Shown piece after piece: positions 7,014 to 10,972 of a DNA stretch of 64,000 nucleotides. Made by a program: the position numbers and the translations under genes. Source of the stretch: Solibacillus daqui (GTDB lineage Bacteria; Bacillota; Bacilli; Bacillales_A; Planococcaceae); contig NZ_CP114887.1 in assembly GCF_028747805.1 (NCBI RefSeq), positions 427,501-491,500 of the forward strand. The letters run 5' to 3'. Each line of letters begins with the position of its first letter. The first letter of the stretch is position 1. The notes beneath the pieces were generated by a model. The model was not told where the DNA came from. It saw only the letters and a program-made list of their open reading frames with translations, and made no database searches.

Positions 7014-7437
7014 AATAAAAAGGCCATTCCACAATAATAGATAATATAGGGTAAATAGTATAATAAAATAAAACCAGACTTTATATTTAGAGGTTTTGAG
7101 TTTGATTATATATAATCAAACTTTGTATTTGTATATATGTAAAACTTTGAAATAAAGTTTGAGAAAACACCTCGTAAATCTTTATTTTACGATTAATAAG
7201 AAGAATCCATTTTGAAAAAAGATTGATCAAAATGGATTCTTCTTTTGCGTTTTTAAGTTTAGTTTTTATAAGTAAGTTTGAACATTTTCTACTAGCATTA
7301 CTCCATAAACGCGCCCGATTGTTGAATAACGAATGCAATTACAAGGTTATGTTTAGCAATACTCCCAAACACCGCTTTGGGAATGTTATAAAGATGACTT
7401 TTGAAACTTTTATAATTGAATTAATGTAAATATAGTA
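7014..7437. other. Intergenic region with palindromes
   Basis: No gene was recognised. It holds a perfect 24-base palindrome at 7099-7122 (AGTTTGATTATA and its complement), nearby short copies of the word AAACTTTG, and a strong 17-bp hairpin at 7198-7244. A later segment (7264-7420) has no visible feature. Confidence 0.6.
7198..7246. terminator. Strong hairpin, probable bidirectional terminator
   Basis: The arms AAGAAGAATCCATTTTG and CAAAATGGATTCTTCTT are exact complements around a 13-base loop, followed by TTTG. It probably ends the permease transcript. Confidence 0.75.
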
Positions 7438-7905
7438 ATGACTTATTGTAGGGAGGGGATTATTGTTTTTATTTATTATTTTTTATTTAGTTTAGGTGTG
7501 TTATTTGTTATAGGCAGTGCGATTTTTTTTATTCGTATGTATAGAAAGAGAGAAATTAAGTTTTGGTCGACGATTAAAATGCTGAGCGGTTTTCTAATGG
7601 CACTCCTAATTTTATGGATGACTGTTCCAAGTTTAAAATATGTAATAACGAAAGACTTTGATGTTGTTAATGGTAAATGCACGATAGAAATATCTTCATC
7701 TGGTCGTTCTTCTAATTCGATTTTCAATATGCTTCAAACAGACGAACAATTTAATTTCAATGAGATTCCTGAACTCGATGCTTATGGCAAATCAATTCCT
7801 TATTACTGTGAGGTTACGGTGACCAAAGACCGTATTTGGGCAATGGATTATAAAATTTACGATTTAAAGACAGGAAAGCTTATGGATTCACATACTGGTA
7901 AATAG
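7438..7905 (+). CDS. Uncharacterised membrane-anchored protein
   Basis: I do not recognise a family. The predicted 155-residue product has two hydrophobic segments near its N-terminus (about residues 9-30 and 44-63) and a hydrophilic, probably extracellular, C-terminal domain with two cysteines. The start is uncertain: the ATG at 7438 lacks a ribosome-binding site, while GGGAGGGG at 7451-7458 points to a start a few codons later, where only non-standard codons such as ATT are in frame. Low GC and position next to other unknown genes suggest accessory DNA. Confidence 0.6.
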   Translation: MTYCREGIIVFIYYFLFSLGVLFVIGSAIFFIRMYRKREIKFWSTIKMLSGFLMALLILWMTVPSLKYVITKDFDVVNGKCTIEISSSGRSSNSIFNMLQTDEQFNFNEIPELDAYGKSIPYYCEVTVTKDRIWAMDYKIYDLKTGKLMDSHTGK

Positions 7906-7918
7906 CTTATTCTTGGGT

Positions 7919-7966
7919 CCCGTCAGAAAAATGTGGAATTACAACATTAAGATTTTTTTCTGACGG
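7919..7966. terminator. Hairpin terminator after the membrane protein gene
   Basis: CCGTCAGAAAAA and TTTTTTTCTGACGG form a long stem with T-runs on the plus strand. It follows the stop codon by about 15 bases. Confidence 0.7.
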
Positions 7967-8230
7967 AATCACCTATTTTAACAATGTTAAGGAATTCGTA
8001 ATGGTCTAAGTTATGTTGGATTATGACTACTCTCTAACCCCTCACCTTGGTTTTGGCGGCGCGGGATCTGATTTAAACGATATAAACCGTCTATACCTGT
8101 TTGTCGATACGCCGCTCGCTAACTACTTAAACATTTGGATTGCATTCTAGTTGTTCCTGATCTTTTTTAGTAAAAAATTTTAAGTCATTTCTCATCCGCT
8201 CCAACATCTTTTTTTCTCATTAAAAGATAA
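7967..8230. other. Unassigned stretch, locally GC-richer
   Basis: No intact gene was found. Bases 8040-8160 (around GGCGGCGCGGGATC) are clearly richer in GC than the flanks. Both strands are broken by stops in every frame. It may be a remnant of foreign DNA, but I could not match it to a known element. Confidence 0.4.
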
Positions 8231-8277
8231 ATACCCTATACGATAGTCTTTTTTCAAAGTTTATATCGTATAGGGTA
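8231..8277. terminator. Bidirectional terminator-like hairpin
   Basis: ACCCTATACGATA and TATCGTATAGGGT enclose about 20 bases. On the minus strand it is followed by ATTTATCTTTT, so it can end the 9.4-8.3 kb operon. Confidence 0.7.
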
Positions 8278-8312
8278 CATTTTATAAATCAAGTCCACGA
8301 AGTGGTTTTTTA

Positions 8313-8492
8313 TTACTTATATTTCTTTGCTAAATACTTATAAGCATAATACAAAATTATGAAAAAAAGTATTCCGTAAATAAATTTATATAATAAGAAA
8401 AAGGTTTTATGTTCATCAGTTAGAACATAAAGAATAAATCCACTTAAAAGATAAAGAAATATAATTGAAATTAGTTTTAATTTTTCGTTCAA
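8313..8492 (-). CDS. Small membrane protein, possible immunity partner
   Basis: A 59-codon frame starts with TTG six bases after the stop of the secreted-protein gene and ends just before a terminator. The product has a short basic N-terminus, two hydrophobic segments (about residues 7-24 and 31-51) and a lysine-rich tail (YLAKKYK). No strong ribosome-binding site is present, so it may be translated by coupling to the gene before it. A small, two-helix basic protein after a secreted peptide gene is a typical layout for immunity to a self-made toxin. That role is inferred only. Confidence 0.55.
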   Translation of the reverse strand: MNEKLKLISIIFLYLLSGFILYVLTDEHKTFFLLYKFIYGILFFIILYYAYKYLAKKYK

Positions 8493-8498
8493 TTTTGA

Positions 8499-9116
8499 TT
8501 ACCACACAACATCGAAATATCCATTATTTGGTTTCGCATCTTTAGAATCAAGATATTCAGCTATTGCTCCCGCAGGATCAAGCACATAATTTAAATAACT
8601 AGCAATAACAGGAAGACTGATTCCTAAAGCTATTGCTGCTTTTCCGATAACTTTTGTTTTAATTGTATTGGTGAATATTCTTTTTAATTCTTCTGCTCCA
8701 TATTTTTTTAATGCAGCAGCTAATGTGCCTACTCCAGAGGCAATAAGGATTCCACTTATAATTGTATCAATTGCTCCTGCTACATATTTATTCTGAATAT
8801 GAATATCTGGAAGGTTAGGTGTCCAAATATCTCCAAGGTCAAACCCCATAGTAGATATCGAATCTGGTGGAATATTAGAAATATCGATGTTTTCAAGGTT
8901 TTCTCTAATACCAATCTCCATTTCTTTTCGTTCTTCGATATTATCAATCTCAGCCAATTTCATTTGTAATGCTTGCTCAATTCCTTTTTCTATCTCTTCT
9001 TCTGTTAATGATAATTTTTCAAAAGAACTTGTTTCCATAGCAGAAGTAGGAGCACTTAAACTGAATGCCATAGCTAAAACAATCAAAAAACTAGTAATCT
9101 TTGTTAAACATTTCAT
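8499..9116 (-). CDS. Secreted protein of unknown function in the Rgg locus
   Basis: The 205-residue product begins with a clear Sec signal peptide (basic start, hydrophobic core, then APTSA before a cleavage site near residue 26). Next comes an acidic helical pro-like region (about 27-90) and then a hydrophobic, glycine- and alanine-rich C-terminal part (about 105-175) with a segment such as TIISGILIASGVGTLAAALKK. That layout, signal then acidic region then amphipathic hydrophobic region, recalls secreted toxins such as SdpC and some larger bacteriocins, but I see no family match. The ATG at 9116 was chosen because AGGGGG stands before it and the signal peptide begins there; the frame is open upstream to 9260 without a ribosome-binding site. 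Confidence 0.75.
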   Translation of the reverse strand: MKCLTKITSFLIVLAMAFSLSAPTSAMETSSFEKLSLTEEEIEKGIEQALQMKLAEIDNIEERKEMEIGIRENLENIDISNIPPDSISTMGFDLGDIWTPNLPDIHIQNKYVAGAIDTIISGILIASGVGTLAAALKKYGAEELKRIFTNTIKTKVIGKAAIALGISLPVIASYLNYVLDPAGAIAEYLDSKDAKPNNGYFDVVW

Positions 9117-9276
9117 AAAATTAATCCCCCTTTTATTTTGTTTTACAGCTTTGAGAAGCTTCGCATTTACTTCTCTATGAATTTCTTGGGTGTAATTATC
9201 TGAATTTGCATAATGAGAAATCGTAGAAACAGATAATGTATTGTATTGCCCCCAACACATAACTTTAAGTATGCCA

Positions 9277-9308
9277 TTTGTAGTGAATGTTTATTATATT
9301 CTTACAAA
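9277..9308. promoter_or_regulatory. Inverted repeat at the 3' end of the peptide gene
   Basis: TTTGTA at 9277-9282 and TACAAA at 9303-9308 are paired, with inner GAAT and ATTC also paired. It overlaps the stop codon of the peptide gene and precedes the secreted-protein gene by about 160 bases. It may be an operator or a processing hairpin. Confidence 0.35.
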
Positions 9309-9370
9309 ACACCGGTTCCAGTTAGCCATACGTCTAATGTTTGAACAAAGTCCATTATAATTAAGACCAT
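9302..9370 (-). CDS. Candidate pheromone peptide gene beside the Rgg regulator
   Basis: This 22-codon frame starts with ATG six bases after AAAAGGAGGG, one of the best ribosome-binding sites in the window. The product is short and hydrophobic; its C-terminal part is LDVWLTGTGVL, with the acidic-aromatic mix seen in short hydrophobic peptides (SHP) that act on Rgg regulators. It is divergent from the regulator, the standard SHP-Rgg layout, and co-oriented with the secreted-protein gene. It lacks the usual basic residues near its start. The role is inferred from size, context and translation signal. Confidence 0.6.
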   Translation of the reverse strand: MVLIIMDFVQTLDVWLTGTGVL

Positions 9371-9418
9371 AACAATCCCTCCTTTTAAAATAGAATACAT
9401 CTTTTTACATTTTTGGAT

Positions 9419-9441
9419 TATAATTATTCACATATGAATAA
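9419..9441 (+). promoter_or_regulatory. Minus-10 element and operator-like palindrome of the Rgg gene
   Basis: TATAAT at 9419-9424 is followed by TTATTCA, four bases and TGAATAA (9424-9441), a perfect 7-bp inverted repeat. It lies between the probable minus-10 element and the ribosome-binding site of the regulator gene, in the divergent promoter region. That position suits autoregulation or control of the peptide gene. No good minus-35 element was seen. Confidence 0.5.
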
Positions 9442-9455
9442 CAAGGAGGATGTGT

Positions 9456-10313
9456 ATGACACTTTCGGATACAATTCGTGATATTCGATTATCTAAAGGC
9501 TTATCTCAAAAACAAGTATCTAACGGATTTCTTTCACAAGGAAATTACTCTAAATTTGAGAATGAAACTATCGAAATAAATGCCTCCACATTTATCGGAA
9601 TTCTAAATAATTTGAATATAGAACTTGAGGAATTCCTTTATATTAAAGATGGATATAGGTATTCAGATAAAGAAAGAATATTTAGAGACTTTTTTCGAGT
9701 ACCTGTAAATAGCCAGGCATTATTAGAAAATCTAGTTTTGAAATGCGAAATTTACTTAGAAACCAATGCAGATTCTCTTGTTTCACTCATAAAAAAAATA
9801 AGCTTATTTTTAATTGAATCAATTAAAAGTAGTGATATATATTTCAATAAAGAACAAGCAAAAGATTTATTGGAGGAATTTTCAAGGAAAGAACACCTTT
9901 ATATTAAGGATCTTTATTTAATAAATAGTATTTTTTTTTTATTTCCAATTGAGAGTGCAGATTTAACAATGGAATACATTGATAATACTTTAAAAAAATA
10001 TGGGGATTTTCAGTCAATTAATCGACTTGAAGTAAATTTGCGTATGAACTATAGCTTAATGCTTATAAAAGAGAACCTAGAAGAAAATGCACTGCAACAA
10101 ATAAATAGGACCTTACCCCTAGTAAAAAAATATAAATTAAGTGTACAAATGGGGATTCTTTATATTAGAATGGGGATTTGCCACAACAATCTTAAAATGA
10201 GTGAAGAGACAAATTACATTGAAAAGGGATTAGCAATACTAGCTGTATTAGAGGAAAACGACATATTGGCCAATATGAACAAAGAAATTAATAAATACCT
10301 ACAAGTCGAGTAG
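9456..10313 (+). CDS. Rgg/GadR/MutR-family transcriptional regulator
   Basis: This 285-residue cytosolic regulator has an N-terminal XRE helix-turn-helix (about residues 1-60) with the Rgg-type turn (LSQKQVSNG, then LSQGNYSKFEN and the LNIELEEF end). A long all-helical region of TPR-like repeats follows, where family members bind imported peptides. Length is normal for Rgg (about 285). The ATG at 9456 was preferred to one at 9450 because of its spacing from AAGGAGG. Rgg proteins usually control adjacent genes in response to a short peptide taken up by an oligopeptide permease; a candidate peptide gene lies divergently at 9302-9370. Confidence 0.88.
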   Translation: MTLSDTIRDIRLSKGLSQKQVSNGFLSQGNYSKFENETIEINASTFIGILNNLNIELEEFLYIKDGYRYSDKERIFRDFFRVPVNSQALLENLVLKCEIYLETNADSLVSLIKKISLFLIESIKSSDIYFNKEQAKDLLEEFSRKEHLYIKDLYLINSIFFLFPIESADLTMEYIDNTLKKYGDFQSINRLEVNLRMNYSLMLIKENLEENALQQINRTLPLVKKYKLSVQMGILYIRMGICHNNLKMSEETNYIEKGLAILAVLEENDILANMNKEINKYLQVE

Positions 10314-10331
10314 GAAGCTAATTATTATTTA

Positions 10332-10439
10332 ATGAGCCAACCTCTCACAACTGAACTTGATATTTTAGAAGCGACTATAGACAAGCATATTGATGTTTTT
10401 AAAGATTTTACGAAAGTCGTATTACAATTAGAGTGCTAA
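10332..10439 (+). CDS. Possible 35-residue protein
   Basis: An ATG-started frame encodes a 35-residue acidic peptide (beginning MSQPLTTELDILEATIDKH) that looks helical. It lies 15 bases before the next gene on the same strand. The upstream ribosome-binding site is weak (GGAAG at long spacing). It could be a small partner of the following gene or the remnant of a larger one. Confidence 0.35.
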   Translation: MSQPLTTELDILEATIDKHIDVFKDFTKVVLQLEC

Positions 10440-10905: not shown

Positions 10906-10913
10906 GTATTAAA

Positions 10914-10972
10914 AACCTCATTTACTTATGATACGGTTCACCGTAACAAATCTAAATGAGGTTTAACTTTTT
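10914..10972 (+). repeat. Dispersed element A, copy 3
   Basis: This is the best-formed copy: outer arms AACCTCATTTA and TAAATGAGGTT, an inner TACGG-TTCA-CCGTA hairpin, then a T-rich tail. It directly follows a terminator hairpin. Confidence 0.8.

Follow-up and report, generated by a model that had tools for sequence, protein, structure and literature searches.

In the window, the 64,000-nucleotide stretch of Solibacillus daqui DNA analysed here, we identified a 22-codon open reading frame that is a real and conserved gene, overlooked because it is very short. Its product is very probably a pheromone precursor, giving the short hydrophobic signal of an SHP/Rgg-like (RRNPP) quorum-sensing pair that would control a secreted-looking protein. 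The features of the locus are collected in Table 1.

Table 1. Features of the locus, with positions counted from the first letter of the window.
Feature	Position	Strand	Details
Predicted pheromone precursor gene	9302..9370	-	22 codons plus stop, MVLIIMDFVQTLDVWLTGTGVL, ATG...TAA
Ribosome-binding site AAAAGGAGGG	9377..9386	-	spacer ATTGTT, 6 bases, then ATG
Sigma-70-like peptide promoter	9417..9444	-	TTGTTA (9444-9439), 16 nt, TATAAT (9422-9417)
Inverted repeat TTATTC-ATATGT-GAATAA, putative receptor operator	9424..9441		inside peptide promoter
RRNPP-type regulator, presumed pheromone receptor	9456..10313	+	HTH_3 and TPR; divergent from peptide
205-aa protein, presumed target	8499..9116	-	signal-peptide-like N-terminus by eye
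59-aa ORF	8313..8492	-	TTG start, two hydrophobic stretches; directly after 205-aa gene
Strain-variable segment with locus	7035..10428		129 bp instead in G001, listed as same species

A sequence-only reading of this DNA had proposed an unannotated 22-codon gene with a near-perfect ribosome-binding site six bases before its ATG, stronger than the sites of most longer genes, and both points were borne out, with the frame running from 9370 to 9302 on the minus strand. Among all ATG, GTG and TTG starts of the window, four, the peptide's included, display an SD match of at least 8 at a spacing of 5–9, and the remaining three open frames of 259–282 codons. For comparison, such a match is found for 3 of the 78 stop-to-stop frames that reach 110 aa or more, a list that was compiled mechanically and includes spurious frames. 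The peptide promoter agrees with the consensus at 10 of 12 positions, while the scan for sigma-70-like promoters yielded 13 sites overall vs 14.1 in shuffles and is thus not above chance level. A plus-strand reading of the same interval was rejected, since the interval has stops on that strand. The C-terminal part of the peptide is DVWLTGTGVL, within which the mature signal would be predicted to lie; the Asp and Trp that the sequence-only reading had placed in the presumed mature part belong to D-x-W-h, the conserved part of the family, and the lack of basic N-terminal residues was likewise observed, the peptide having no N-terminal Lys. From its family it departs by the end TGTGVL, which closes on VL without a final G, and by the Thr after WL.

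The genus search covered 16 genomes, 14 of which gave a regulator match, one of them weak. Among 261 Planococcaceae genomes (the order-level search comprised the same 261), 84 had a regulator match at E 1e-15; stretches were taken around most of the better matches, several broken, partial and weaker ones being left out, and 85 distinct regulators were defined by profile at E 1e-30. A divergent short ORF with a ribosome-binding site is present at the same place for 54 of these 85 regulators, mostly 80–120 bases from the regulator start. By a hand count the 54 loci are spread over 41 genomes and 8 genera, including Lysinibacillus, Sporosarcina, Psychrobacillus and Solibacillus; the window's genus contributes 11 of its 16 genomes, G002 and G005 hold three peptides each, and the Viridibacillus locus L070 showed no such peptide. 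The automatic peptide rule missed the frame at L009, which was named by hand before counting, and settled on a different start or frame at L023, L046, L047, L059, L061, L076, L079, L085, L087 and L112, which were hand-set before the counts. A candidate at L082, 443 bases off, was excluded, and L115, a fragment of uncertain start, was counted as peptide-free.

The 54 loci encode 44 distinct peptides of 14–23 residues, apart from one at L009 whose frame extends to 32, and 35 of the 44 measure 14–19 aa. The motif [DE]hW is found in 36 distinct peptides, [DE]W only in 3 more and neither in 5. Trp followed by a hydrophobic residue occurs in all 44, where the Trp itself belonged to the detection rule; G after the Trp is seen in 42 and K or R at residues 2–6 in 3. 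The regulator nearest to the window's, 68% identical, is that of L050 and is accompanied by the peptide MASVLVDLVQALDVWLIGTGVL; further members are MEILMSLVEALDVWLIGIDVF (L005), MVDLLITTLELWIIGTGGG (L007), MLDFIISMLDIWFIGGG (L051) and MEIFQILIDIWIIVGG (L079). Variants with a C-terminal Cys, MELIKIILDWMLGC and MNLIKSLIDWMIGC, were noted at L100 and L101. A class-level search of 398 genomes gave a regulator match in 12 genomes outside Planococcaceae, and in the 13 loci from there, for which ORFs of 10–60 aa with a ribosome-binding site were listed, the [DE]hWh motif was absent. One of these outside loci, L132, carries MFSPDIIWAIRPSR with a full ribosome-binding site. At L139, also outside the family, a divergent 29-aa ORF, VKKITIYLFFVASLPLFNLLDIWRWWGFH, lies beside a related regulator and ends in LLDIWRWWGFH; with its basic N-terminus, double Trp and the same LDIW it is a possible bridge to the streptococcal double-tryptophan peptides.

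For 31 of the 85 regulators (one being the fragment L115) the search for an ORF with a ribosome-binding site returned no peptide. In a tree of 84 rows the window falls into a 38-row clade (SH-aLRT 98), in which 35 rows have a peptide and L014, L016 and L048 are peptide-free. Its four-row group joins a long branch (L061), so that its exact place inside the clade is unsure. Whole distant groups are peptide-free, e.g. 12 rows with L024.

The sequence AAGGAGG runs up to 9449, which favours the ATG at 9456, rather than 9450, as the start of the regulator. The protein has an HTH_3 match above cut-off, and its AlphaFold2 model, built from 13 sequences, reached a pLDDT of 87.9. In the structure comparison, the top 12 rows all match over the whole length and comprise Lmo0325 (Z 19.4, rmsd 5.5, 279 aligned), S. 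salivarius NrpR (19.3), Rgg144 (19.3), Rgg3 (18.1), Rgg2 (17.7) and PlcR (17.5). RopB was matched with Z 16.2 over 215 residues, and PrgX (14.7), Rap (13.2), NprR (12.9) and ComR (12.9) scored no better than unrelated TPR proteins (13–14). The sequence profile search agrees (Lmo0325 3.8e-20, Rgg3 2.5e-10, PlcR 8.5e-9), and the window's regulator is predicted from the model to have a pheromone-receptor fold. Against TIGR01716 (RGG_Cterm) no family was listed for it at a maximum E of 10, in a search whose HMMER filters drop most matches above about 0.1, while 8 of the 13 alignment members matched this family, the best at 2.9e-8. We therefore do not file the regulator as Rgg proper. The SHP-type signal beside an Rgg-type regulator that the sequence-only reading had proposed is supported, with the caveat that the window's regulator itself gave no TIGR01716 match.

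In the profile alignment, with the position counted by hand, N197 aligns with residue 201 of PlcR, an Asn which we take to be the peptide-anchoring residue. All 53 aligned regulators that have a peptide carry Asn at this position, and of the 31 peptide-free ones 25 have Asn and 6 Asp; Arg237 is conserved in 52 of 53 and 24 of 31, respectively. A key Asn is described as anchoring the peptide in Rap, PlcR and PrgX (PMC3601992) and is called unclear for ComR (PMC5131902). The marks of an RRNPP receptor, namely the HTH and TPR arrangement, the groove Asn and an adjacent short peptide gene, are all found here.

The inverted repeat between the two genes overlaps the peptide's -35 element and the spacer before its -10 element, and it immediately precedes the ribosome-binding site of the regulator. 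Its pattern, TTATTCN6GAATAA, has its sole exact copy in the genome at this place, but the reversed control pattern has 3 copies, so that the genome count of the operator alone shows nothing. No second site was found by the genome-wide pattern search, and hence no distant regulon is indicated. Over the family, six-base inverted repeats are present in 26 of 49 distinct promoters, where shuffling predicts 4.1. Many of these 49 belong to close relatives, and neither promoters nor peptides that are related count as independent samples. A single operator consensus common to all loci was considered and rejected, TATTC-N4-8-GAATA occurring in 16 of the 54 peptide loci and 6 of the 31 peptide-free ones; another subgroup carries AGTC...GACT in the promoter (by eye). 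The repeat inside the promoter would fit peptide-relieved repression as well as activation.

In the mechanism that we favour, the 22-residue precursor would be made and then cut before or near the Asp, and the cut peptide would be exported, re-enter through an oligopeptide permease and settle in the TPR groove of the regulator encoded divergently from it. This regulator would bind the inverted repeat between the two genes, and the peptide would in this way alter transcription of its own gene, as feedback, and of the downstream 205-residue secreted-looking protein with its small membrane partner. In this scheme we infer the cleavage site, exporter, import, binding, expression, the direction of regulation and what the 205-residue protein does. 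The window's genome encodes an EcsB-family protein (365 bits), an M50 protease (242 bits) and 13 SBP_bac_5 matches, one under cut-off and two being pieces of one frame; since these proteins are general, their presence simply permits the model. PptAB, Eep and Ami are described as acting on SHPs (PMC7564271), which are usually processed just before an Asp or Glu (PMC12445099); it is by analogy with them that the mature signal is placed within DVWLTGTGVL. A transporter of the PptAB/Ecs type is no more than a plausible exporter here. It is unlikely, though the conservation evidence would look identical, that the peptide is instead a ligand of the regulator inside the producing cell, acting without export as a private timer or autoregulatory ligand and not as a quorum signal. 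Such a role would agree with the absent basic N-terminus and the rarity of early K or R in the family, but SHPs, also without Sec signals, are reported to be exported by PptAB and reimported (PMC7564271, PMC10075063), and the genome holds the EcsB, the M50 protease and many peptide-binding proteins just named.

The hydrophobicity of the peptide, its length of mostly 14–23 residues and the adjoining XRE regulator would also suit a peptide that is itself the effector, either membrane-active or resembling a type I toxin, and is repressed by its divergent neighbour. We regard this as very improbable, since what is conserved is a short D-x-W-h-x-G tail and the regulator has a predicted pheromone-receptor fold.

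Under the favoured pheromone reading, the presumed target is the 205-aa protein, whose gene lies on the same strand as the peptide, 185 nt beyond, with no terminator found between them by script. It matched no Pfam or NCBIfam family at cut-off, its AF2 model has a pLDDT of 50, and it is bacteriocin-like by layout only; the 59-aa ORF behind it is immunity-like by position. Homologues of both ORFs occur in the same order in the congener G012 (L031), the larger one being 59% identical; upstream of them no regulator was found within 1.5 kb and no peptide within 580 bases, so that the secreted-looking protein also occurs apart from the pair. Secreted-looking proteins are located downstream of many family peptides (signal peptides by eye), and 22 secreted-looking or neighbouring proteins were considered, 10 of which were compared with each family library. 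The neighbour at L026 is EntV-like (4.6e-16, 59.2 bits, under the cut-off of 130), Peptidase_C92 was matched over cut-off at L116 and just under it at L051, and Peptidase_C39_2 and Ntox44 neighbours were found at L056 and L079; several further neighbours, with 10 compared per library, gave no family at cut-off. Elsewhere, no secreted-looking gene lies within reach, or a terminator-like hairpin stands behind the peptide. At 5 of 6 loci in one group of Solibacillus, the peptide is followed by a hairpin (loop 25–26 nt) whose tail is T-rich, and the peptide there may therefore be a separate unit.

The arrangement in the window, with a secreted gene on the same strand 185 nt on and no terminator between, could in principle make the peptide a leader ORF that acts 5' of this gene by attenuation or translational coupling. 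This is scarcely credible, however, given that the peptide is kept where the downstream gene differs or is distant, that a terminator-like hairpin follows it at 5 of 6 loci of the Solibacillus group, and that codons vary while residues stay. The last point is part of the evidence for coding. With the strict rule, [DE]hWh together with an SD match of at least 5, an ORF is found at 42 of the 85 regulators, as against 0 in 3,400 dinucleotide shuffles (40 per locus) and none on the opposite strand at any of the 85; the motif was drawn from the same loci, so that the shuffle test argues against chance, yet is not independent of the discovery. Substitution bias is support for coding separate from the motif test: comparing the window with its nearest relative L050, pS is 0.73 and pN 0.18, corresponding to 11.5 synonymous and 8.5 nonsynonymous differences. 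By group, pN/pS amounts to 0.12, 0.28, 0.24 (window vs L050), 0.15, 0.17 and 0.23, and to 0.54 for one pair, which has 3 differences in all; the groups were hand-picked among close relatives, and one had a single distinct sequence. The alignment of the same short frame in relatives, proposed as a check with the sequence-only reading, gave a divergent frame at 54 of 85 regulators in which the C-terminal D-x-W-h is kept and changes are mostly synonymous, and a search for frameshifts and stops in the three nearest homologues (L050, L005, L006) found none. The early judgement that such a frame is unlikely to be random thus holds, and a chance ORF, to which nothing but the very short frame would point, has next to no probability left and is in our view already refuted by the conserved family.

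In G001, of the same listed species, neither the regulator nor the 205-aa gene found a close match, and the segment is replaced by 129 bp, as judged from flanks that match exactly over 35 bp at one end and over 496 bp at the other end; the locus is thus strain-variable. Within the variable segment, a 155-aa ORF (7438-7905) is matched at 97% on the DNA level by another part of G001 (C1:1382801). Beyond the segment, a repeat of about 54 bp (10911-10964) has many copies elsewhere in G001, G007 and G012. Remnants of a close regulator copy, with a 76-aa ORF, were noticed at G000:C1:2643648-2643839 (L002) and in G007 (L025), with identities of 69% (64 query residues) and 66% (73 query residues) and a sigma-factor-like gene nearby in both. 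A loss within the family is displayed by L029 when compared with its sister L027 (G005:C2 near 285213; G002:C25 near 108403): a clean 610-bp deletion takes the peptide and the secreted gene, which is EntV-like by eye only and has no family match, and leaves the regulator, the inverted repeat and a 90-aa membrane protein. L029 thus looks like an immunity-only cheater.

We lean slightly towards a broader picture of an unannotated peptide language across Planococcaceae, in which leader-poor, mostly single-Trp pheromones and Rgg-like receptors would form a cassette that is combined with interchangeable secreted effectors (EntV-like proteins, peptidases C92 and C39, Ntox44 and others without a family) as well as with immunity-like genes, some strains such as L029 dropping signal and effector and keeping receptor and presumed immunity in a cheater-like manner. 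If true, SHP-like quorum sensing would be present in at least 8 of the 19 Planococcaceae genera searched, carried by peptide genes of fewer than 30 codons, a size at which annotation readily passes over them. As the signals can be predicted from DNA, synthetic peptides could be tested at once. The peptides furthermore point to unknown secreted proteins beside them, the multi-pair genomes G002 and G005 represent a natural set for signal specificity, and losses such as that of L029 offer material for cheating studies.

Among known systems, PlcR/PapR shares the receptor fold and the aligned Asn; PapR is longer, carries a Sec signal and is encoded downstream of PlcR in the same direction. ComR/ComS and other double-tryptophan peptides have Trp in the signal and a related receptor, but in contrast to double-tryptophan ComS the Planococcaceae peptides usually have one Trp and a Gly-rich end, and the window's regulator compares with ComR at Z 12.9 vs 17–19 with Rgg2, Rgg3 and Rgg144. 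With the leaderless peptides of the RopB/LCP type, as described in PMC10518010, the present ones share that they are very short, hydrophobic, aromatic, preferably divergent and found by a similar logic based on ribosome-binding sites. LCPs are, however, mostly 8–10 aa and leaderless, in contrast to 14–23 aa, with one of 32, and a conserved C-terminal part here. The same paper extends leaderless peptides to several families, Bacillaceae included, and reports a Lysinibacillus sphaericus LCP pair with eight extra C-terminal residues. A search that covered main-text passages found no paper on such peptides in Planococcaceae, and of LCP pairs only that of L. sphaericus; the main texts of PMC10075063 and PMC9765709, as far as covered, leave these genera unnamed.

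Common to the present pair and the streptococcal SHP/Rgg systems of groups I and II are a divergent short gene, a receptor with the Rgg fold, here predicted, and a peptide in which a hydrophobic C-terminal part, frequently with Gly, comes after Asp or Glu (PMC13361665, PMC12445099, PMC3150281). The L079 peptide ends in DIWIIVGG, close to the SHP3-C8 sequence DIIIIVGG (PMC3150281). With 22 aa the window's peptide fits the SHP length of 20–26 aa, while most of its relatives are shorter, often 14–19 aa. Unlike SHPs, every counted Planococcaceae peptide has a Trp, which was part of the detection rule, the window's peptide has no N-terminal Lys, and the host family is Planococcaceae. On present evidence, we consider the system a new variant within known SHP/Rgg-like signalling.
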